Below, one piece after another: positions 2,038 to 57,454 of a DNA stretch of 64,000 nt. The DNA lies in contig OW804095.1 in assembly GCA_942159475.1 (NCBI GenBank), forward strand, positions 150,340,808 through 150,404,807, written 5' to 3'. The notes beneath the pieces are model-generated. The model ran no database searches. It was given only the letters and a program-made list of their open reading frames with translations, and was not told the origin of the DNA. Positions within the stretch are counted from its first letter, which is position 1. The number at the start of each line of letters is the position of its first letter. This DNA comes from Sthenelais limicola. Taxonomy: Eukaryota; Annelida; Polychaeta; Phyllodocida; Sigalionidae. A program made the position numbers and the translations under genes.

Positions 2038-2069
2038 CACTCTCCCGCGCAACGTATCCGCGCGATACG
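2038..2069 (+). repeat. Left terminal inverted repeat of the 9.1-kb element
   Basis: Begins CACTCTCCCGCGC and ends in a small internal palindrome around CGTATCCGCGCGATACG. It pairs with 11135-11166 on the other strand, with about four mismatches in 32. Confidence 0.75.
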
Positions 2070-2127
2070 AAAATGAATACGATTTTCTTGTACCCACTTT
2101 TGATACGATTTTTTTCGTCTCAGCGTA

Positions 2128-2208
2128 TTCGCGCGGCGTTTTTCGTATCGGAGATTCGCGCAGCGTTTTTCGTATCAGCGGTTCGCGCAGCGTTTTTCGT
2201 ATCAGCGA
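2128..2208 (+). repeat. 27-bp subterminal tandem repeat, three copies
   Basis: Units start at 2128, 2155 and 2182 and centre on gcgcagcgtttttcgtatca. Related words occur near the other end in inverted orientation (around 10967-11040). Tandem subterminal motifs are common transposase-binding sites in DNA transposons; that role here is inference. Confidence 0.75.
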
Positions 2209-3229
2209 TGCGTGCTCTCAGAAATCTATTTTTAGCACAGTGGTAGCGTGGTGGGCCAGGATTCAGGGGGGGACGGGGATGGTGAATTTCGCATGGGGGG
2301 CAGCAGGGTGAAAATGGAAAATATTCGCTTTAATTAATGGTTTGTTTCTATCCGATATTATATTGCAATTAATGTACTGTACTGTACCATGCTATATGAA
2401 AAAAGAGGCATTATTATCGGCAAAATTGAAGCAAGAGAAGACAAGACAATGGTTACATTATGTATATTTTACTCCTTTATTATCTATTTCACACTCCAGT
2501 CACATATTATATATATATCTTTCATTTGCATTTTACATATGTAAAATTCCCTCTGCTCTGGCTGGAATGAAAGAGAATTCATCTAAACCAATACATGACC
2601 GATTTTCATGACAAGTAGTCATTTGCACAAAATGCAGTGGAAAAAACCTCAAAATAGGATTTATTATATATTGCTGATTTTTCTAGTACATATTACCATG
2701 AAACCCCGCTGTAGTTCCCTGAATTTTGGCAGCTAAATATCTAGTAAAATTAGCATTCACTGGCCTGGCAAAGTTGTCCACCTCTACCATGCCATCATTG
2801 TACGTCACGCTGAATATTAAGATATTTAAAGTAGCATTTCATCCATGTGGTAGGTTCATTTTCTATTTTAAAAAACCAGTGTCAAATTCAATTGAGAATA
2901 TTAATGAACATTTTAAAACTGCTTATTTCACATGTAAAAAAAACACAATAAGGTAAAACCATGGAATAGACCAGCTAAATATGATCGCCATTCATTCCAA
3001 GGCAACCATTTTGAAAGGGATACCCCGCCCCCTTGCTGTCAAAAGCACAAAACTGTCAGTCGAAGATCAGAGAAATTCAAAATCCTCTTTGCCATAGGAT
3101 TAGTATGAGGAATCAGCTATGACGTCCCTATAACAACTAAATATTTTCAAGATGTTTGTAGCAAAATCCTGGGCACAATGCCTGTTGCGACCTATATTTG
3201 GTCACCCAGATACAAAAGATCTGGTTCAA
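2209..3229. other. AT-rich sequence inside the 9.1-kb element, no gene seen
   Basis: Short open frames only (such as 2342-2611 and 2726-2956), AT-driven and without domains or paired splice sites. Confidence 0.5.
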
Positions 3230-5125
3230 AAACCTCTTAAAACTTCAATCTAAAATCGATCGGAAAAATGTCTTTTTGACTGCCTCTGTAATTATGATAA
3301 AACAGGAAAAGTGTTAATCAAATTAATCATTTCCAAGACCGCCTGGACGTCCCTTAAATTACCAATTTTGAGTGTAAAGATACTTGCTATTTCTTGGCAT
3401 AATAGCAGATTGGGCACTTCCAGAAATTTTGTCCTATAGTTCTATAACCTGCATGGCGTTAATAACCTATTTTTGTCCCCAAAATGGTGCATAAATTTCC
3501 TCTGACGGGTCTCGGAAAACATGTCTAACCTTGTATGTAAAAACACAAAAATCAATTAGAAATGTTTCCGCAGTTTTCTGACATTAAAAACGGGTCACAA
3601 AAACACCCTGAATTGACGCCCATAATGACTAGAAATGTCCATATATACCTGCTGTATAAAACCTTATTATGAGGTAAATATTTCACCTTAACCCTCGTAT
3701 ATATAGGCATTGACAAACCTGACTCCAAAAACGCTTAAAATTATATATCATAACAGCGTTATAGAATCCCTCAACTATCCACATATATAATTGAACAAAA
3801 ATATAATGCAATATCATGCATCTAAGACTGAACAGAAACTTGCGGTTAACCTACGGATAACATAAATGATGTTAATAGCCAACATACAATTTTTAAATGG
3901 CGTTGGCCATGTCCTAGAACCAATGTCCAACTTGAGTGAACAGCAATACACAATGTATTTCTGTCTTTGAGTGATATAAGCACTGAAATCTTGAGAAGTA
4001 CTCTAACCTTATTAAACATTAATCAAGCTTAATATTTAAAATAACCCATTCGTTGGTAGTAGAAATCTATATTTTCAAGGAATAAAGATACAATAATATC
4101 ATGGGTAACGCTGCCTGAGATTCATAACAGCTCAGGATGAAACACACTTGTCCAATAGATCACATAAACCTTGTTACACAATGTTGAAGAACTATTGAAT
4201 TTGGCCGGCCCTGCGTGCCTACTACTTCCTAAGACCTTGGAAAAACACAGAACTGAAAGGACCTAAAATTATTATATATAACTTATAATTATACCTCTAA
4301 GGATTACTTTTGACTTATTAAAATTGTGACCATCTATGTGCTCTGCTGTCGTTAAACCATGCTTATTAGGATCTCAAATTGTATACTGAGAATGCCTATG
4401 TCATAGAGGCAAACCCCAAAATTAACCTATGACCATGATCACCCTAACTATTAGGCTTACATTTCATGATAAATACGTGTCAGAAAATACTGTTTGTATG
4501 AAATAAATTGCCGAAATAGAATTAAAAAATAGCGTTGGTGATGTTCAAGGGGACCATCACCCAAACTGAATGAGCAACACAGTGTATTTCTCTCTTTGAG
4601 TCATGTAAACACCATAACTTTCTGAAAAATACCTTAACCATATCTATGATATCAATATTAAACAGAAATATAACATGAAATAGAAAATATTCCATTTGTT
4701 GCTAGCAGAAATTATTTCTATTCCATTTAAACCTCACATTTTCAAATGAAATAAAGGGTTGGAGACACTCAGACCTATACCTCATAGCTTATAAATGCCT
4801 AACAGATCAAACCAGAAAGAAAATGGTCATCTGTTTGATTTTAAACTAAATATTAATAATTTGTACTTCTATGATATATCATATAATAATTATCATCTCT
4901 GTTTAAAATAAGGCTTCAAAATTCATTCTAGATGTATACCTTCAAACCATTTTTTGTTCTCAGAATGAGAGAAATCACATTGCGTTGCCCTATATAATCA
5001 TGGTTTTTTATTTACAGTTCCATTTGCATTTTGCATCAATACACTAGATTGAGAAGGACAACCCTAATGATCCTTATTAGAGTGGAATATTCTTTCTAGG
5101 GGCAGGCTCACAATCATAGTGGCGG
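3230..5125. other. AT-rich interior of the 9.1-kb element with diverged internal duplications
   Basis: No gene seen. 3885-4090 resembles 4510-4760 (shared order: gcgttgg, tgagcaacac-like, gtatttctctctttgagt, catttgttgctagcagaaat). The exon delta border (5256-5315) is repeated at about 3276-3332. This suggests old tandem duplication with a period near 630 bases. Confidence 0.6.
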
Positions 5126-5269
5126 CTAACTGTTGTCGATTCTGGCATCCCTGGCCTGCTTGGCCCAGTAGTTTAATTTGGATCCAGCAGCCCACAGGTT
5201 GTTGCAAATAGCAATGGGTATCACCAAATCAATGTCCTTCTCTTCATTTCGCCTGGTGGACTTGACTGC
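5126..5269 (-). CDS. Candidate terminal exon (delta) inside the 9.1-kb element
   Basis: Minus strand: acceptor acaattacagag, 47 codons, stop TAG. The peptide contains STRRNEEKDIDLVIPIAICN and then NNLWAAGSKLNYWAKQARD, with no low complexity. It reads as a real protein C-terminus. Phase 0 entry matches gamma. An acceptor two bases earlier is also possible. I do not recognise the family. The intron/exon border is duplicated at about 3276-3332, where only the first codons survive. Confidence 0.5.
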   Translation of the reverse strand, partial: AVKSTRRNEEKDIDLVIPIAICNNLWAAGSKLNYWAKQARDARIDNS

Positions 5270-5757
5270 CTCTGTAATTGTGATGAAACAGGAAAAGTGT
5301 TAATCAAATTAAATATTTTCTTCACTAATTGTTACCCGTATATATACATATGGTATATCAATTTGTGACTAATATTTTTAATATTAATTTGATAATCATT
5401 TAAATCGTAAGATAAGGTGCACAGCACAAGGGCCTTGAATTCCTTGAAATTCATGGAATATTAATGCTGCTGCTATTAGACTTAGTAAGTCTCTGATTTT
5501 TGTTTTGTTTGCACACCCGCCTGTATATATACGTACACTTTTGTATGCCTTACTTGTACCTTATTCTTATTGTGTATTATGTAGTTTACTAGTCAACTGA
5601 TATCACCAATTGCCATTATTACTATTGTATCAGTATCTATTCCAAAACCGATGGGGTATTCGGAAGAGCTGTGACTATCACAGACAATATTCCTTTTCCC
5701 CCCTTCCCTCCCTTTTCTTCTTTTAATTTAACCTGTATGATTGTATATGTGAAATCT

Positions 5758-5791
<34 letters not shown>

Positions 5792-5793
5792 TA
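5758..5793. repeat. (TAA)n microsatellite
   Basis: About a dozen ata/aat triplets in a row, preceded by gtatatgtgaaatctta. It may be the tail of a retroelement. Confidence 0.9.
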
Positions 5794-5885
5794 AAGGTAA
5801 TTATGATAAATCTATTAGATTAGAGTCACTATAAATCTAATATATGTCCCTCTCCTATAGATTCCTCTAGTCAAGATGTACCTAC

Positions 5886-5945
5886 CTCTGTAGCAATACG
5901 ATCCTCTAAATAACAACGCTCATAGCATCCAACAGGTAAGATTTC
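5886..5945 (-). CDS. Candidate 60-nt exon (gamma) inside the 9.1-kb element
   Basis: Minus strand: acceptor with a good pyrimidine tract (tgctttcctccaag), 20 codons (EILPVGCYERCYLEDRIATE), donor acagag|gtaggt. It is phase 0 at both ends and so joins cleanly to the terminal exon at 5269-5126. No family recognised. A competing plus-strand reading (QYDPLNNNAHSIQQ, donor caacag|gtaaga at 5936) overlaps and cannot be excluded. Confidence 0.4.
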
Positions 5946-6811
5946 CTTGGAGGAAAGCAGTCAAATGGAAACTGTCGGCCAGGCATTTTCATGGAGCTGC
6001 CACTTCAAACAAACACATTAAATCATGTTAATCAAGGTCAATAGGCGAGGAAACCATTAATTGAACTAAGTGATGGCAAGAGGGACCTTTGCAAGAGTTT
6101 AAGACCTAAACTGGTCCATCATAGTAAGGTAATAAGTCTGATATACAAACCACTGGGCATTAAAATGAAATTACATTGGTTTTCTGGGAAACAGTAAAAA
6201 AATTCAATAAGTTTCCCAATCACAAAATGATGTATTATTTACCAAGGTCAAAAGCATATATACAGCAAACAGTGACAGACAGAGAAATAGGCAGACTGAT
6301 GGAGAGACAGACAGGCACAGACGTCAGAGACATACAGACAGCTAGATAGGGCTATAGACAGATGGATGGAGAGAGGCAGACACAGACACAGGACCTAAGA
6401 GTGATTAATAGTTCTGGGGTGGGGTGGGAGCATGTAAGCGCCTATAGAAACCCCAGATCAATGGCCTAGAAAATATATATATGACAAAGTATAAGATAAA
6501 TCACAATAGTGAATTAAAGACCTCCCACTTGATCTCCCCTGTTTCATCAGCTTTAGCCTCATATAGAATATGAAAACTAACCAACTGATACTCATTAGTC
6601 ATTAGTGTTGTAGGGGAGTCTTAGGGGAGAGCGAGGAGACTTGTCATATCTCAAGAGACATAATGAGATTTCAATGATCTCTAAAGTTCTCCCCACACAC
6701 ATCTCTACCCTCACCCACATCACTACCCAAACCCTGCCCCCTCCCCACCCCAACCCCCACTCCGACTCCCACCCCCACTTCCCTAACCCATACCCATACC
6801 CATGCAGTCAC
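5946..6811. other. Mostly non-coding; one weak coding-like patch
   Basis: Minus-strand 6563-6522 reads EAKADETGEIKWE with an acceptor-like tatatgag but only a poor donor (ggag|gtcttt). It could lie between exons beta and gamma but is not supported well enough to call. 6270-6380 is a degenerate (AGAC)n-like run. Confidence 0.3.
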
Positions 6812-8068
6812 TTCCAACCCTGTAACCTCTACCCCCTGTGCACCTCTACCCCTGTACACCTCTACCCCTGTGCACCTCTACCCCCTGTGCACCTCTACCC
6901 CCTGTGCACCTCTACCCCCCAGTGCACCTAAACCCCCAGTTACCTCAACCCCCTTGCACCTAAACCCCCAGTTACCTCTAACCCTGTGCACCTCTACCCC
7001 CAGTTACCTCTAACCCTGTGCACCTCTACCCCCAGTTACCTCTACCCCCTGTGCACCTCTACCCCCAGTTACCTCTACCCCCTGTGCACCTCTACCCCCA
7101 GTTACCTCTACCCCTGTGCACCTCTACCCCCAGTTACCTCTACCCCCAGTTACCTCTACCCCTGTGCACCTCTACCCCCAGTTACCTCTACCCCCTGTGC
7201 ACCTCTACCCCCAGTTACCTCTACCCCCTGTGCACCTCTACCCCCAGTTACCTCTACCCCTGTGCACCTCTACCCCCAGTTACCTCTAACCCTGTGCACC
7301 TCTACCCCCAGTTACCTCTAACCCTGTGCACCTCTACCCCTGTGCACCTCTACCCCCAGTTACCTCTAACCCTGTGCACCTCTACCCCCAGTTACCTCTA
7401 CCCCTGTGCACCTCTACCCCCAGTTACCTCTAACCCTGTGCACCTTAACCCCCAGTTACCTCTACCCCTGTGCACCTCTACCCCCAGTTACCTCTAACCC
7501 TGTGCACCTCTACCCCCAGTTACCTCTACCCCTGTGCACCTCTACCCCCAGTTACCTCTACCCCTGTGCACCTCTACCCCCAGTTACCTCTAACCCTGTG
7601 CACCTCTACCCCCAGTTACCTCTAACCCTGTGCACCTCTACCCCCAGTTACCTCTACCCCTGTGCACCTCTACCCCCTGTGCACCTCTACCCCCAGTTAC
7701 CTCTACCCCTGTGCACCTCTACCCCCAGTTACCTCTACCCCTGTGCACCTCTACCCCCAGTTACCTCTACCCCTGTGCACCTCTACCCCCAGTTACCTCT
7801 AACCCTGTGCACCTCTACCCCCAGTTACCTCTACCCCCGCCGACAGGTCCCGACGTATTGGGGAAATCTGTACTATCGGGAAAATGGCAATCGCAAGTGC
7901 CGCCAATATCGGGAGAGGGTATCGGGAGTGGTTAACCCAGTTACCTCTACGCCTGTTTGTTTCTACCCCCAGTTACCTCTACCTCTGTACCTCGCCCCCC
8001 CCCCCCCCACACGCACACCTCCACACTCCTCTACCCCTACATATCTCTACCCCCAGTTACCTCTACCA
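6812..8068. repeat. 32-bp C-rich minisatellite, about 35 units, interrupted once
   Basis: The unit is two 16-mers, acctctacccctgtgc and acctctacccccagtt. Alternation and local duplications vary along the array. A 102-base non-repeat stretch (7835-7936) interrupts it and a degraded tail continues to 8068. Both strands stay open in several frames only because the unit has few stops; it is not coding. The G-rich (minus) strand has GGGG runs that could fold into quadruplexes. Confidence 0.95.
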
Positions 8069-8154
8069 AACATGGAGAAACCTGCCAGACTGCGGCCCTT
8101 GACCTTGAAAAGACATGTGGGTCTGACTGTCTGGTTATATAAAATCAATACACA

Positions 8155-8570
8155 TATGTGATCCGTTTTAGGAAAATGAGTCATAAGTCACATAATATGG
8201 ATTTTTTTTATATTACCATATTTGAAAAGAGGAGATCAAGCCGATTCCAATGATAGTAAACACTAGGACAACTAATGAGTATTTCTATATTTTTAAGTTT
8301 GATATTTTTATTTTTGAAAAAAAAAGTTTGCAATGTTTCTGGATGGGTAATTACCAGTAAAGTAACTAAATATATTCCATACAAAGGCCTTCAAAACGCA
8401 AGGATATATTTAATACAATGTCCCGAAATTTGATAGATGGATTTATATGACTATAAGAGATAGACCGTCTAAAGATCAGAACATTTCAATACAGAGAACT
8501 TGTGAAAAGAACACTTGGAAAAATATCACTTTGGCGACCTGTGACTCATTTTCCTGAAACATATCACATA
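8155..8570. mobile_element. Family C MITE, copy 1
   Basis: Ends TATGTGAT and ATCACATA; inside these, ggaaaatgagtcataagtca at the left mirrors gacctgtgactcattttcct at the right. It aligns over its length with 13179-13589 and 38512-38929. Confidence 0.85.
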
Positions 8571-8586
8571 TAAAGATTGAACTCAC

Positions 8587-8666
8587 CTTATACTTGTAGA
8601 TTCTTCACCAGTAAACGGATTTATGCATGCTCCATCTTCATACAGCTTGCACCAACATGCAAACTT
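8587..8666 (-). CDS. Candidate internal exon (beta) inside the 9.1-kb element
   Basis: Minus-strand reading: acceptor cacaaaag (weak pyrimidine tract), 26 codons, then a strong donor aag|gtgagt. The peptide is Cys-rich, KFACWCKLYEDGACINPF then TGEESTSI. Composition and splice site look like real coding sequence, but I recognise no family. It ends in phase 2, so it does not join directly to the exon at 5945. It abuts the family C element (8155-8570), which lies in the intron just past its donor. Confidence 0.4.
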
Positions 8667-8840
8667 CTTTTGTGATCACAATCACATATTGTTGCTATTT
8701 TATTTATGATGATCATGTCCTGGGACTCTCTCAAAGTCAACACCGCCATCAGGATCTTTAAAATAAAATAAACATGGATGGATGATGGATAAGCATGGAT
8801 AAAGACATATCTGACGCAGTTGAACTGATATCTAGCTATA

Positions 8841-8943
8841 GATGTTAGTATTCTTGTAGAAAGGACAACGTATAACTTCATAAAATTTGGACATGTCCGA
8901 TTTTAATGAAGTTATAAGTTGTCCTTCCAAAAATACTAATATC
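8841..8943. repeat. Imperfect 50-bp inverted repeat around ggacatgtcc
   Basis: Left arm gatgttagtattcttgtaga...tataacttcat mirrors right arm atgaagttataagttgtcct...aatactaatatc, centred on the palindrome ggacatgtcc (8889-8898). Could be a short fold-back element or a structured RNA. Confidence 0.75.
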
Positions 8944-9584
8944 AATAACCCAAAATTACAAGCTAGCATTTATCATATCTTTTCCCGCCGTACTAGGCAT
9001 TTATTTCGCCATAAACAGTTAACAACTTTATGTGTATACAATTGGGAACGTAGAAATAGTAAATCAATGCTACCTTGCACTGGAATCCTAACTAAATCTG
9101 CATACTCATACCCACACACTGACCCATGACCAAGACATACTTTCACTTATGGAGGTTCGAATAAGATAATAGCACAATTACTGTAAAAAACACAAGAGAA
9201 GCTGGCTGAAGTGGGTTTATATTATAAGAGAGGTCGTTTGTCTGGCTTTAGACTTGGTTCACACACCCGTACTGGAGAGTAGATTTGATTCATTAACTAG
9301 AATGGAATGCAATGTAAAGAATTAAAAAAAGTGTCTTGAAAAAACTAAGAAAGTGCTATGGTTCATACCTTTCATCGCATTTTCTAGGTGTAAATTTTGT
9401 AAGATTAATTAATCCCTGTAAGGGCTTGATTTAAACTGTGAGTGATTATTGTGTGTAACATTCAATCTAATGAATGGGTTGAATCTATAACTTGTTGTAG
9501 AGTATCAAGGTGTAGGTTTACAATAGGGGGGGGGGGTTGTTGGCGGGGGAATGACCTAGAACCATTAAATATATCTATCTACTT

Positions 9585-10202
9585 CGAAGCTAATCCTATA
9601 GAGTATTTTAGCTACTTACCAACGATTGGAAATTGAGGTACACTTAATGGCTCAATACTCATATGGTATTAGGACAGTCAAATAAATATGTCGGGGTATT
9701 TAATACAATTTAAATTGTGTAAAAAGCTTAAATAGTTTTTGAGTAATGAGCAGAAATATTCGGACATAATTTTAGACATTATGTCGGCGAATAGCTCATC
9801 CTATAGATTATTTTAGCTACTTTACCAACGATTGGAAATAGAGGTACAAATAATTGCGCAATAATCATATAAAATTAGGAAAGTCAAATAGATATGTCGG
9901 GGTATTTAATACAATTTAAATTGTGTAAAATGCTTAAATAGTTTTTGAGCAATGAGCAGAAGTATTCGGACATAATTCTAGACATTATGTCGGCGAATAG
10001 CTCCTATAACTCCTATAGAGTATATTTTATAGATACTTTACCAACGATTGGAAATAGAGGTACAAATAATTGCGCAATAATCATATAAAATTAGGAAAGT
10101 CGAATAGATATGTTGGCGTATTTAATACAATTTAAATTGTGTCAAAAGCTTAAATACTTTTTGAGTAATGAGCAGAAGTATTCGGACATAATTTTAGACA
10201 TT
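9585..10202. repeat. Tandem satellite, three units of about 206-216 bp
   Basis: The word ccaacgattgg recurs at 9619, 9825 and 10041. Whole units align, including aatttaaattgtgt and ttattcggacataatt-like segments. Copies 2 and 3 are closer to each other than to copy 1. No open frame is conserved. Lies inside the 9.1-kb element. Confidence 0.92.
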
Positions 10203-11134
10203 ACCAACCTCGGTATTACCCATTGCGGTCTTCCATAAATTATACATTTCAAGGCGACCTGACTGATATTATAGCGTCGGGTAGTGGACCCCGTCGTTGG
10301 CTGCCACCGGGAAATGTAGCCTAACACCCCGTCACTTTACATGGTACCGCATAGCTCTGCATCGGGGGCCAGATCGGGGGCCTAACACATATATTTATGT
10401 TCAAAATTAATCAAGATTTTTTCTCAAATGCATTGGGTCGGAGGAATTGGGCAACTGTGCGAGGCTTGGTAGGTCTGCCTATAGCTTGTGGGCCTGGTTG
10501 GGGAGACTGTAGCCCTATATTGAACATAGGCATCTAGCCTAGATTGAATGAAAATGTCCGCATCGCCGGGCATCGCCACACTATAATTAAAAGGCACCAA
10601 TGATGCCTCTGGTGGATTTTAAATCCGTCTGTGTGCAATACCTCTTATGTAAACACATTTGTTATGCAAGGTTTACTTTGAAGTGTTGGGATGGGCATAA
10701 AACAAAGTAACTTGAGTCAACGGAAAGTTTCAAACTCACCTTTTCGAAATGGCCCAGCTGATGGAACCAGGATGTAGGCCTAAACTATACAGAGCTGCAC
10801 GTTACGCCATCTATTGTTCACATTAAAAGGTGGCATAGCACGGCGGTCGCCGCCTGAGTCTTTTGAGACCGTTGCTGACACCTCTCTCACACTGGCACCT
10901 CCATGTCGCTCACACTGCGGCAAGCTTGGTCCCCGGGGCTTGGTCACCTAACAAGCTTGTTAATACGAAAAACGCAGCGCAAATACGGAGCATATCATAT
11001 TTCGTCTCCGTGATTCAAATGACCGTTTTTCGTATCAGAAGTTCAGGCAATTTCGTCACCACTGTTCACCAGTAGCGCTCGCGGTGCTTGGTAGACAAAA
11101 ATCGTCTCACTGAAGACGAAAAAACTTGCCGCTC
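10203..11134. other. Right interior of the 9.1-kb element
   Basis: No gene seen. 10960-11134 carries the inverted relatives of the left subterminal motifs (aatacgaaaaacgcagcgca; accgtttttcgtatcagaag; aaaaatcgtctcactgaaga). Confidence 0.55.
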
Positions 11135-11166
11135 CGTATCGCCCGGGTACGGCGCGCGGGAGAGTG
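11135..11166 (-). repeat. Right terminal inverted repeat of the 9.1-kb element
   Basis: Read on the minus strand it begins CACTCTCCCGCGC, then CCGTACCCGGGCGATACG. The 13 outermost bases are identical to the left end. Confidence 0.75.
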
Positions 11167-11256
11167 TAATGGGATTGTAATAGCATTTTGCGGTTTGGAG
11201 CGAGAGACCTTCCCTCGGATTGGAGGGTACACATAGCTACACATCTGAGCCTAGTG
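11167..11256 (+). mobile_element. Family B MITE, right half of the interrupted copy
   Basis: Carries the family B right half (taatgggattgtaatagcat, ttttgcggtttggagcgaga) and ends near gagcctagtg. Orientation and breakpoint complement the left half at 1942-2037. Confidence 0.75.
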
Positions 11257-30950: not shown

Positions 30951-32285
30951 GTTCTTTGTGTAAAAACCAAAATCATCTTCTAATTTCCTCCCTTCGGCAT
31001 ACACCACGCGGAGTTCCGCTATTCATGTATTCTCCATATGGCTTCCCTTCATCTTCTTAATCTTTGGGAACATGGGATATTATATATTTGGGAATATTAA
31101 TCCGTTAAATATTGCCACTCTAAGTAGAATAGCAAAATACAAATATGATAAACATTTAGAGTAAAATCAATTAGCTCATGAAAAACGGAGGAAACACCAA
31201 TTTCTCTACATTTGCAGTATTCAAATCATAATTATGCAGTGCTAACAATCTAAGAAAGAAAGAATTGATAAAAATATGTCGTGACTATTTAGCTGGGAGT
31301 GTATCGTTAATTAAGGATATTTGTGACGATCATCGTACGTTCTAAGTGCTGTGCAATTATATTGTTCAGAAGATTTGCTGTTTAAAAATACTAAATAGTA
31401 GGAAGGTTGAATTATCTCGACCATGGAAGACGATGACAAAAATATAATATTGTCGATACATGGGGAAAGTAATGCGTCGGGGATACTGTTATCGAACAAT
31501 GCCACAGTTGTGGGCGAGTGGGGCCAGGGTCTTTATTTTAGATTAATTGTCACCCTGCGATTAGCAGGGCTTCAAAAATTGGTCTATAGACTCATTGTCA
31601 TGTTCCTCCCCACGGAAATCTTTAGTAAAAGGCGAAAGATTTATGCGTGGTGAAGAGAAACCAGAGTTGGTCTGTAACCGGCCCAGAGGGGATAGTAATA
31701 TTTTTGCACCGACTCAGGTCGCGGTGTCAGAAGAGGCCTATACGCAACATTTCGTTCTCGCTCAAAACTAAGACAATCTCCTTCCAGCCCTAATAATAAA
31801 AAATCTCAAACATATTTCATATATGAAATATATATTAGGTATATTTTTGTGTGTCCTCGGGACGATAATTATACACAAAGCAAATGATACAGAAGTACGA
31901 GCGTGAAGAGGTCGGCTTGAAGCACGACGCCACGCACGGAAAAACTAGGAACCATTATACACTGTGCTGGCTAGCCCGTACATACCGAGCCAGGTATGGC
32001 CGACCCATATATGGCCATAGTAAGCTATAGTAATTCCCATGTGTAATTCCATTCAGCGTTGTGCTGTGATCGCCCGAGTATTGAACATGTTTTAAATGAA
32101 GCAATTTACCGACAAATGTTTCACTGGTCAATTACATGTATATTTCTCATCCTGTCAATGACAAAACGACGTGAGCCTTTGTGCCAAATTTTAAAAGATT
32201 AACATTAATCAATACACATTTTAGTATTACTAGACTACACTCTATACGTCCAGTAGGCAGTAAACATCAAAGCACGCTAGGGTTA

Positions 32286-36147: not shown

Positions 36148-36327
36148 TCTAGCCTCATAGCCTCATATATATAAGAATGGTTTGTATGAATGCGAGGTCT
36201 ACTGTACTAATGGTTTTCCCGGCCCTGGAGTAGGCGTCCAAATGGGATTCTAATGTCATTTTGCAGTTTGGAGCGAGAAGTTTTCTCTCAGTTTGAAGGT
36301 ACTCTCTCAACTCTGATTGGGCGAGAT
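36148..36327 (+). mobile_element. Family B MITE, diverged
   Basis: Left end tctagcctcatagcctcata; interior ggccctggagtaggcgtcca and attttgcagtttggagcgag; right end decayed (tctgattgggcgag). Closest relative of the split copy at 1942/11167. Confidence 0.75.
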
Positions 36328-48003: not shown

Positions 48004-51000
48004 GTAGGTTTTGTATTACAGTATATAGTGTCTGTATAATGCCGGTGTGTAAAAACATGATGGTGCAATTAAATATATAGTGCAGTGGGGTAAACACATA
48101 CCGTAGCGGCCCGTTTATAAGCTGGGACCTGTTTAAAATCTTATCCCAATGCAGGCCGGGGGTATGAGGGGCATGAAAAAATAAATTTAATTCTCAATTG
48201 CAAGCATTGACAACATTTTGCAAGGTCACTATATCCTCTGTTGAGGCTGACAAAAGGGACATAATAAAATATACGCATACAAAAACTGTTATTATCTAGT
48301 CTTTAACACACAATCTTCAATATATTATAGAAATTAGCATATTTTTAATAATAATAATAATAATAAACAACAAAACAACAAAATATAATGAAAACAACAA
48401 AATATAATCATATCTGTAATGATCATTGAATATCATATTGGCCTCTAATGAATAAAAACGAAGAGAAAAAGGTATTATAATCCATTCCCCTCTATTGTTT
48501 TATATTTTCAGGGATGACCCTGACCATGCTAGGTGCTGCTAACGTGCACTGGTCAGAGCGACACAGCACAGGCTCTGGTAAGAACAGAAGGACGACCACC
48601 AGACACTACAGGTCTAATGAGTGCTACTTTAATAATGAGGTCCTTCTGTTTGGCCGTAAGTCTTTGATCATGCTCATCTCTTTGTTAAGACAATAAGTGT
48701 ACTCCAGAGAGCACACAAATCAGCGTGCAAAATAGTCAATTGAAAGGCCATAGAAGTCAATATCAATCATAGCTGGAGTACCATTCTTTAAAGACATGGG
48801 CACACACTGCCTAAATAATCAATATTCCACAGATTCTGAGGCATAGCCTAAACAATGATAATTCTCCCTAGTTCTAATGTAGAAAAATGATTGTATTTCC
48901 TTTTTTCAACTGTGCAGATGGCGGCGGCATGTTTTCAGGCAGTACGCCTCACCCAGCTGGCAACTACTCCTATCCGTTCCAAATGCAGCTACCTCAACAT
49001 TTGCCTTCATCCTTTGAGGGTGCACATGGCAATGTCCGCTACTACATCAAGTGCACAATTGACAGGCCTTGGAAATTTGACCACAAAACGAAAGCAGTAT
49101 TTACTGTAATCGCCAATCTTGACCTCAACACGCTTGGGGCCATAATGGTAAATTTTTACAATACACTTGGTCTTTGCAGGGTACTGTGAGCCTTGAAAAG
49201 CATGGAATTTGGAAAAATACATTCAAGGCCTATGATAGTGATAGCTGCCCTGAAAATTGGCTGATGTGACTGCCTGGATTGGAAAAGTCTTGAATTTATT
49301 GTGATCTATACCACAAAGAGAGAATAGACATTTATTGGGTAAAGAGGAATTTAGCTTAACTCTGGCCTAGTGAGTGAAGGCATAAGGCCCTTCCCTTGTA
49401 TGTAAGCTTCCATTTCCTGTGTAAGAGTTTATGGTTCAATATACTCAAGATGGGCCCTACTATTTAGTCAAAATCTGACTCTAAATTCCAGACTCCAGAC
49501 TTTAATCCCAAACAGAGATATATATAATTGATTTGAGGTTATGATGGGTTAACCTGGATACTGTTGCCCTGCAACAACTCCAGGTTGCCACAACACTGTT
49601 ACCAGGTGAGCTAGGTGGAACGTTCTACTGAGCAGCGCATTTGCTCAGTTGTGGTAGCACAGTCAGTGAACGTATGCGTACGTTTTCCAATCTTTAGTCA
49701 AAATCTGATTTAACCAAAATATTCAGGTCATGTCCCAAAGTTCTAATACATGTACATTTAAGATAGATTGTAATTTTATAAGATGTTGTATGTATACCTG
49801 ATTCTTGAAGAAACTGAGCTGGTATTTCTTTCAAACTCTACTTGATACTACTCCCTCTAATTACTTCTGTGCTAAAGGTTTCTTTTACTCTTTTAGCGGC
49901 CACTGAGAGGAGAGAACTCCAAGACGTTGTGCTGTTTGTGCTGTGCCTCAGGCCCTATAGAAGCTTCTGTGTCGGTGGACAGAGGAGGCTTTGTCCCTGG
50001 TGAGAACATCCTTATCAACGCTGTCATCAACAATGGTTCCAGCCGCAGCATTAGCAGTACAAAGGCTGAGTTAGTCATGGTCAGTGGGTTTTTTTGTTTT
50101 TGCAAATTCCTGCCGTCTTGGCCTTCACAATTATGCTAAATCAAGTACATGTATTACTGGTTTTTATTTGTACTCTTACTGTATTTTATCAAACTAGTGT
50201 GAGAATGATCATGTATCTATGTATCCTCCCAGGTACTAGAGAAAAACCCCATTGTGGTGATCTAGTCCCGGTAAAAAAATACTTGTTATAGTATAAATCT
50301 GCAAATTTAATCCATTTCTTTCTTCTCTTTTGTAAGATCACCTCATTCCATGCGACGTCCAAGTCTAGATCGGCGTCCAAGATAGTGGCGGTGAGAAAGA
50401 GTGAGGAGATTGAGGGAGGCGGTAACTTGGTGTGGAACAACGAGCCTCTGCACATCCCTCCTGTGCCACCCTCTGACCTGGTGGGCTGCAGAATCATTGA
50501 CATCAGATACTACATCAATGTACGTAAAACATGAATGAGTGAATGGATGAATTAATAAAAGACAGTAACATGAACACCTGACACTGTGAGGCTGTCTGAA
50601 AAATGAACAAACAAAAAAATGTTGATTGCAAGTCATTTAGCAAATTACTGGGTTGTGGAAAGATTAACTAGAAGATATCCCCATAAGGGTTTGGGTGAAT
50701 CGCTTTATATAGAATATGTGTAATTATCAACTTATTTGTGTTGTAAAAATGTACATATTATTATTTACTGTACTTCAATTTTCTTTGACAGAATCTATGC
50801 TTAATATTTTAAAACGGTTAACTACTAATATGTGGCATAACCTCTCAATCTACCTGTAACTGTTTCTTGGATCTCGTCAGAATATAGATCATCGTCTAAA
50901 TTAAGTCCAAATAAAGTTATTTTAAAAAAAAACAGTTTGTAAATTGCTAGACACAGGTAGGCCTTTTGTTTTGAGGCAGACAATCCCTCCTGTGCACTCC

Positions 51001-57280: not shown

Positions 57281-57454
57281 AGCATTTGTAGTGGCGTAAT
57301 GCTAATGGCTTTTCTGGCCCAGGAGTAGGCATCCTAATGGGATTATAATGGTATTTTGCAGTACTAATAGGATTATAATAGCATTTTGTTTTTTGTTTGG
57401 AGCGTGAGGCTTTGCCTCAGTTTGAAGGGACTCCAACTTTGAGCCTATAGACTG
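57281..57454 (+). mobile_element. Family B MITE, left end decayed
   Basis: Contains gcccaggagtaggcatccta, atgggattataatggtattt and ttgaagggactccaactttg, ending gagcctatagact. It preserves the site where the 9.1-kb element inserted in the split copy. Confidence 0.78.

Follow-up and report, generated by a model that had tools for sequence, protein, structure and literature searches.

We analysed a 64,000-nucleotide stretch of the genome of the polychaete Sthenelais limicola (contig OW804095.1; hereafter, the window), in which a 9,129-bp insert at positions 2038–11166 interrupts a dispersed repeat, family B. The insert is very probably a long non-autonomous DNA transposon of an EnSpm/CACTA-like (CMC) family, a placement based on its ends, its 2-bp target-site duplication and a transposase that is linked to the same ends at other loci. 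The original prediction had spoken of a non-autonomous or undescribed large transposon; the first description stands, whereas 'undescribed' has to be qualified, as the unit fits a known kind. Thereby, an anonymous 9-kb insertion becomes part of a defined family that apparently moved recently and for which there is a candidate enzyme.

The two ends of the insert are inverted copies, flanked on each side by TA. They start with CACTCTCCCGCGC on opposite strands, the first 13 bases being exact and 28 of 32 matching overall (left terminal inverted repeat, 2038–2069, plus strand; right, 11135–11166, minus strand), and diverge past these 32 bases. Both begin with CACTC, giving the pattern 5'-CAC..GTG-3', and the element lies on the plus strand with its left-type end first. 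With up to two mismatches allowed, the 13-mer is found at only these two places in the window (0.12 expected), a count that none of 100 shuffles reached. The copies of the TA duplication, read from the flanks, occupy 2036–2037 and 11167–11168. Inverted ends of about 28/32 identity with TA at both breakpoints had been predicted, and this is what the exact boundaries display.

Family B ends at 2037 and restarts at 11167, its left part spanning 1945–2037 and its right part 11167–11226, both on the plus strand, as delimited by BLAST, multiple alignment and junction comparison. We left the insert out and compared 46 bases across the junction, ungapped, with five further copies of family B in the window. 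The rejoined site agrees with two uninterrupted copies, at 35 positions for that at 36222 and at 34 for that at 57317; the remaining three copies match in 29, 28 and 22, and the best match elsewhere in the window is 28. The restored site is clearly backed by two of the five copies, and the other three barely exceed, or do not exceed, this background. The anticipated agreement with an intact relative at 57281 (our copy at 57317) is thus confirmed by 34 matches against 28. BLAST spans the junction only for the copy at 36148–36299 (72% over 156 columns). When gaps are allowed in a multiple alignment, three of the five show some 30 additional bases close to the junction, which fits an internal repeat of family B.

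A search with window positions 2600–6300 revealed a 99% match on chromosome C9 (C-numbers denote chromosomes of the 1.13-Gb genome, and L-numbers individual fetched copies). This second copy, C9:38323108–38331566, is 8,459 bp long and has both ends and TA flanks; its surroundings are unrelated to those of the window insert and lie on another chromosome. Outside two arrays, the copies differ by 31 mismatches in 7,481 aligned bases (99.6% identity). Their length difference resides mostly in the arrays: a 16-bp unit is repeated 62.7 times in the window and 33.7 times in the C9 copy, which, judging from overlapping matches, also has one 206-bp unit fewer. We infer that the window element moved recently by transposition. 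Boundaries, TA duplication, rejoined site and second copy all agree with the single large insertion originally proposed. Further genome matches to the insert are partial (69–98%). One of them, L070 (C6:17364300–17373299), matches the body of the insert in blocks of 82–98%, inner left end included, has no match to its first 190 bp or right 205 bp, and sits between frames that by eye resemble the reverse transcriptase of long interspersed nuclear elements (LINEs). Related families may swap ends, as this copy hints.

The ends define a family across the genome. Counts of the 13-mer on the two strands are 374 and 357, compared with 48 and 47 for a backwards control, and 260 places fit a 35-base left-type pattern with at most one mismatch (none for its control). 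On chromosome C1, which has 99 places of the 13-mer, neighbouring pairs less than 30 kb apart face inward in 25 cases and outward in two. Moreover, 34 of the 39 left-type ends of C1 face an inward exact 13-mer within 30 kb, as against 2 of 39 with the strand flipped, the type of the partner end having been checked for part of the pairs. The implied lengths range from 0.7 to 28 kb (23 below 3 kb, two of 3.5–6 kb and nine above 7 kb). A genome search for other copies of the ends had been suggested with the original prediction; given 260 left-type ends and the 99.6% second copy, the notion that no other copy exists is refuted. We read the flanks of 21 elements, namely, 19 of the 25 inward pairs of C1 (a 26-kb element described below included), the window insert and the C9 copy. 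TA stands on both sides of 18 elements, CA on both sides of two, and TA and CA flank one (L030). Flanking sequences of 2 bp are equal in 20 of the 21, those of 3 bp in none; the existence of CA/CA flanks shows that the 2 bp represent a true duplication and not end sequence.

Of six long copies compared with the window, five have about 440–520 bp of the left end in common with it, including 27-bp repeats, and the sixth (L023) has about 165 bp of it and one further piece. At the right end, the long copies agree with the window over 205 bp and with each other over as much as about 240 bp. Their interiors largely differ from one another. L021 and L031/L032 are 98–99% alike, except for an extra stretch in L031/L032 that reads like a nested LINE; 812 bp at 92% are common to L029 and L027/L028, and about 1.1 kb at 90% to the 26-kb element and L027/L028; some smaller pieces are also shared. 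Short copies have interiors in common with each other. Pfam searches gave one sub-cutoff zinc-finger match in six frames of L021 and none in the three plus frames of L031 and one frame of L032. Within the L031/L032 copy on C1, a 645-amino-acid frame (L032:2926–4863) contains a NADAR domain (PF08719, E 1.5e-30) and adjoins frames resembling, by eye, LINE endonuclease and reverse transcriptase; it may be the first open reading frame (ORF) of the LINE.

Common ends around largely different interiors would also be expected if the interiors of the long copies were host genes captured between transposon ends. Such Pack-TIR elements are known from animals (PMC8277862), and the likeness to the window family lies in the same transposon ends enclosing differing interiors. 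However, no Pfam family was detected at E≤0.1 in any of the six frames of the window insert, no exons were recognised in it, and its parts searched against the genome (2600–6300 and 8200–11166) match many dispersed repeats, with no host-gene parent seen there. In lacking a recognised host gene the insert differs from Pack-TIRs, and we consider this origin very improbable. The same profile search of the interior upholds the original statement that the insert has no obvious transposase and fails to confirm the exon-like sequence that had been reported inside it.

A candidate enzyme is encoded by a 26,365-bp element, C1:23826832–23853196, which has one right-type and one left-type end. Its left end corresponds to window positions 2038–2481 (plus strand; 93% over 448 columns) and its right end to 10962–11166 (minus strand; 93% over 205 bp). 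The element holds an intact open frame of 820 amino acids, P0002. On its sequence, P0002 is a DDE protein with the EnSpm/CACTA-Mirage-Chapaev-Transib signature. Its motif is DD(C2C)(H3H)E, and the C(2)C and H(3-4)H pairs are present in 72 of 72 aligned sequences. A profile comparison matches ORFs that have Transposase_21 matches (E 6e-23), and one of 46 aligned members itself has a Transposase_21 Pfam match. The core of P0002 is predicted to resemble RAG1, an enzyme of the immune system, in fold; the N-terminal region is zinc-finger-like and the C-terminus possibly BAH-like. Relatives were found in oyster, nemertean and echinoderm records. A 102-amino-acid open frame beside the right end of the 26-kb element, reading towards the interior (L018:2563–2868), has no Pfam match, and neither do the inward frames beside ends in L018 and L004.

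In a genome search with P0002, 55 of 250 candidates were scored, yielding 60 listed matches. Among these, three gene copies are at least 98% identical: that of the 26-kb element and those on C1 (25.83 Mb) and C4 (58.80 Mb). For each of the latter two, a left-type end with TA beside it is 5.5–5.6 kb away, and all three are about 5.5 kb from the same end. A partial copy at 90–95% identity (C1:20211742–20213230) is about 4 kb from the left-type end at C1:20207607. Two full-length copies with 57% identity on C1 lie near none of the 99 listed ends, which fits their belonging to separate families. Another 33 of the 60 matches are only 27–30% identical, with frames of 572–938 amino acids (one with a stop), and many of them score identically, which indicates additional families of the same transposase type. 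A left-type end and an inward 13-mer 28.3 kb apart (C1:66071335–66099641) have no P0002 between them among the matches listed.

Genes with Transposase_21 (PF02992; 18 matches in the genome) were also considered. The check covered closeness to known ends for the five matches on C1, and end pairs around the copy on C3 (L043) and the copy at 86.8 Mb on C1 (L054). None of the five C1 genes is near the 99 exact-end places, and no matching end pair was found for L043 and L054, around which the search gave one partnerless CACTA-like end candidate upstream. Because no nearby ends or end pairs were found among the copies examined, there is no sign that these genes are the partner. A tblastn comparison of CACTA-type ORFs with the fetched elements and the window gave one chance-level match (E 0.8), located in the window but beyond the insert.

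CMC elements are recognised by 5'-CAC..GTG-3' inverted ends, a 2–3 bp target-site duplication and, in the autonomous member of the family, a DDE transposase whose second D and E are separated by C(2)C and H(3-4)H. The insert has such ends, with CACTC for the strict CACTA, and a 2-bp duplication, and the linked P0002 has the cysteine and histidine pairs. The transposase of its own that would mark an autonomous CMC element is absent from the window unit, as judged from Pfam and from comparison with the 26-kb interior. We propose that the transposase of full-size relatives would act in trans on elements that lost or replaced the enzyme gene. The 820-amino-acid protein would recognise terminal and subterminal end sequences; subterminal repeats are a CACTA trait, and the 27-bp repeats of the window insert (2111–2209, plus strand, 3.6 copies) are candidate transposase-binding sites. 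After cut-and-paste excision, the protein would insert the element at a target site cut with a 2-bp stagger, TA in most cases and CA in some. Since movement would require nothing but the ends, interiors could vary freely. P0002 would accordingly be the presumptive enzyme that moved the window insert, its binding, catalysis and cut-and-paste chemistry being putative.

Several observations weigh against this reading. No interior sequence was detected in common between the window insert and the 26-kb element, which is, moreover, flanked by CA and not TA. P0002 itself matches no Pfam transposase family, Transposase_21 included, and of its three gene copies just one is enclosed by a located pair of ends; for the other two, no right end was found. 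The left-type end closest to a 95% fragment of P0002 (C1:20191515–20192486, at 20.19 Mb) among those listed is about 15 kb away, and a further gene copy lies in pieces of 83–90% identity at 64.84 Mb on C9. Among the ends, five of the 39 left-type ends of C1 have no partner within 30 kb, and L030, one of the 21 elements, is flanked unequally and carries a right-type end at each side.

The prevalence of TA on both sides, together with ends starting with CA, is also reminiscent of a non-autonomous Tc1/mariner-type element, moved by an IS630/Tc1/mariner transposase, as TA is the mariner target. Tc1/mariner duplications are TA-only, however, and two of the 21 elements have CA/CA; furthermore, judged on the linked protein alone, the enzyme is CMC/RAG1-like and not of the IS630 type, with three of three near-identical genes by the same end. 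This explanation is slightly less probable still than gene capture. That unrelated sequence was wrongly joined in the assembly, at 2037/2038 and 11166/11167, can practically be dismissed, as no supporting evidence was found, the C9 copy has the same two boundaries, and the boundary is repeated family-wide.

Among known systems, the EnSpm/CACTA elements (CMCT clade of PMC12730594) resemble the CMC-type window family in their 5'-CAC..GTG-3' ends and short duplication. The linked transposase has the same DD(C2C)(H3H)E motif and a profile match to ORFs with Transposase_21. The differences are CACTC in place of CACTA, the lack of a Transposase_21 Pfam match in P0002, and a duplication of 2 bp (TA/CA) against 3 bp in EnSpm (PMC12730594). 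Animal CACTA elements of the TRC and ENS1_Cis types have 2-bp duplications (PMC1636069, PMC6004678, PMC4298943); ENS1_Cis shares the CAC..GTG ends, and those of TRC begin with CCC, unlike the window family, a comparison made by description and not by transposase sequence. ESTA elements, which are EnSpm-like and reported from fungi with TET/JBP genes, share TA duplications, CMCT motifs and RAG1-likeness by description only (PMC12730594). ISL2EU elements have AT duplications and ends usually starting with GG (PMC4482050), in contrast to the TA/CA duplications and CAC ends found here. RAG1, RAGL and Transib differ from the window family in its 2-bp duplication, other ends and possible BAH-like C-terminal domain. 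Transib/RAG duplications are 5 bp, a length not seen among the 21 elements.

The putative BAH-like domain might be a part of the P0002 system that goes beyond the known kind. RAG1 works with RAG2, which bears a PHD. It is conceivable, if rather doubtful, that P0002 fuses a RAG1-like core to a BAH chromatin reader, so that a histone or nucleosome signal would direct where these large elements insert; if true, P0002 would be a single-protein counterpart to RAG1 working with RAG2. BAH does not occur in the literature matches listed, 12 papers of 406 and 12 of 305, and three others appear off-topic by their abstracts. P0002, a candidate CMC enzyme of an animal whose core is predicted to be RAG1-like and whose C-terminus is possibly BAH-like, may be useful for relating CMC, Transib and RAG recombinases and for asking whether transposases read chromatin. 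Cargo size (0.7–28 kb between paired ends on C1) and target choice likewise become testable.

The satellites originally noted inside the insert correspond to the 16-bp minisatellite (6825–7838, plus strand) and the dispersed 206-bp tandem repeat (9588–10203, plus strand, 2.9 copies). Arrays similar to the latter, of roughly 600 bp, occur at many places in the genome with about 90% identity. A nested dispersed repeat of about 430 bp with inverted arms (8154–8581) is 75% and 77% identical to two other window copies. Elsewhere, the window contains a U5 small nuclear RNA gene (31552–31669, minus strand, 93.5 bits) and an exon encoding an Arrestin N-terminal domain (48878–49189, PF00339, E 3.4e-24).

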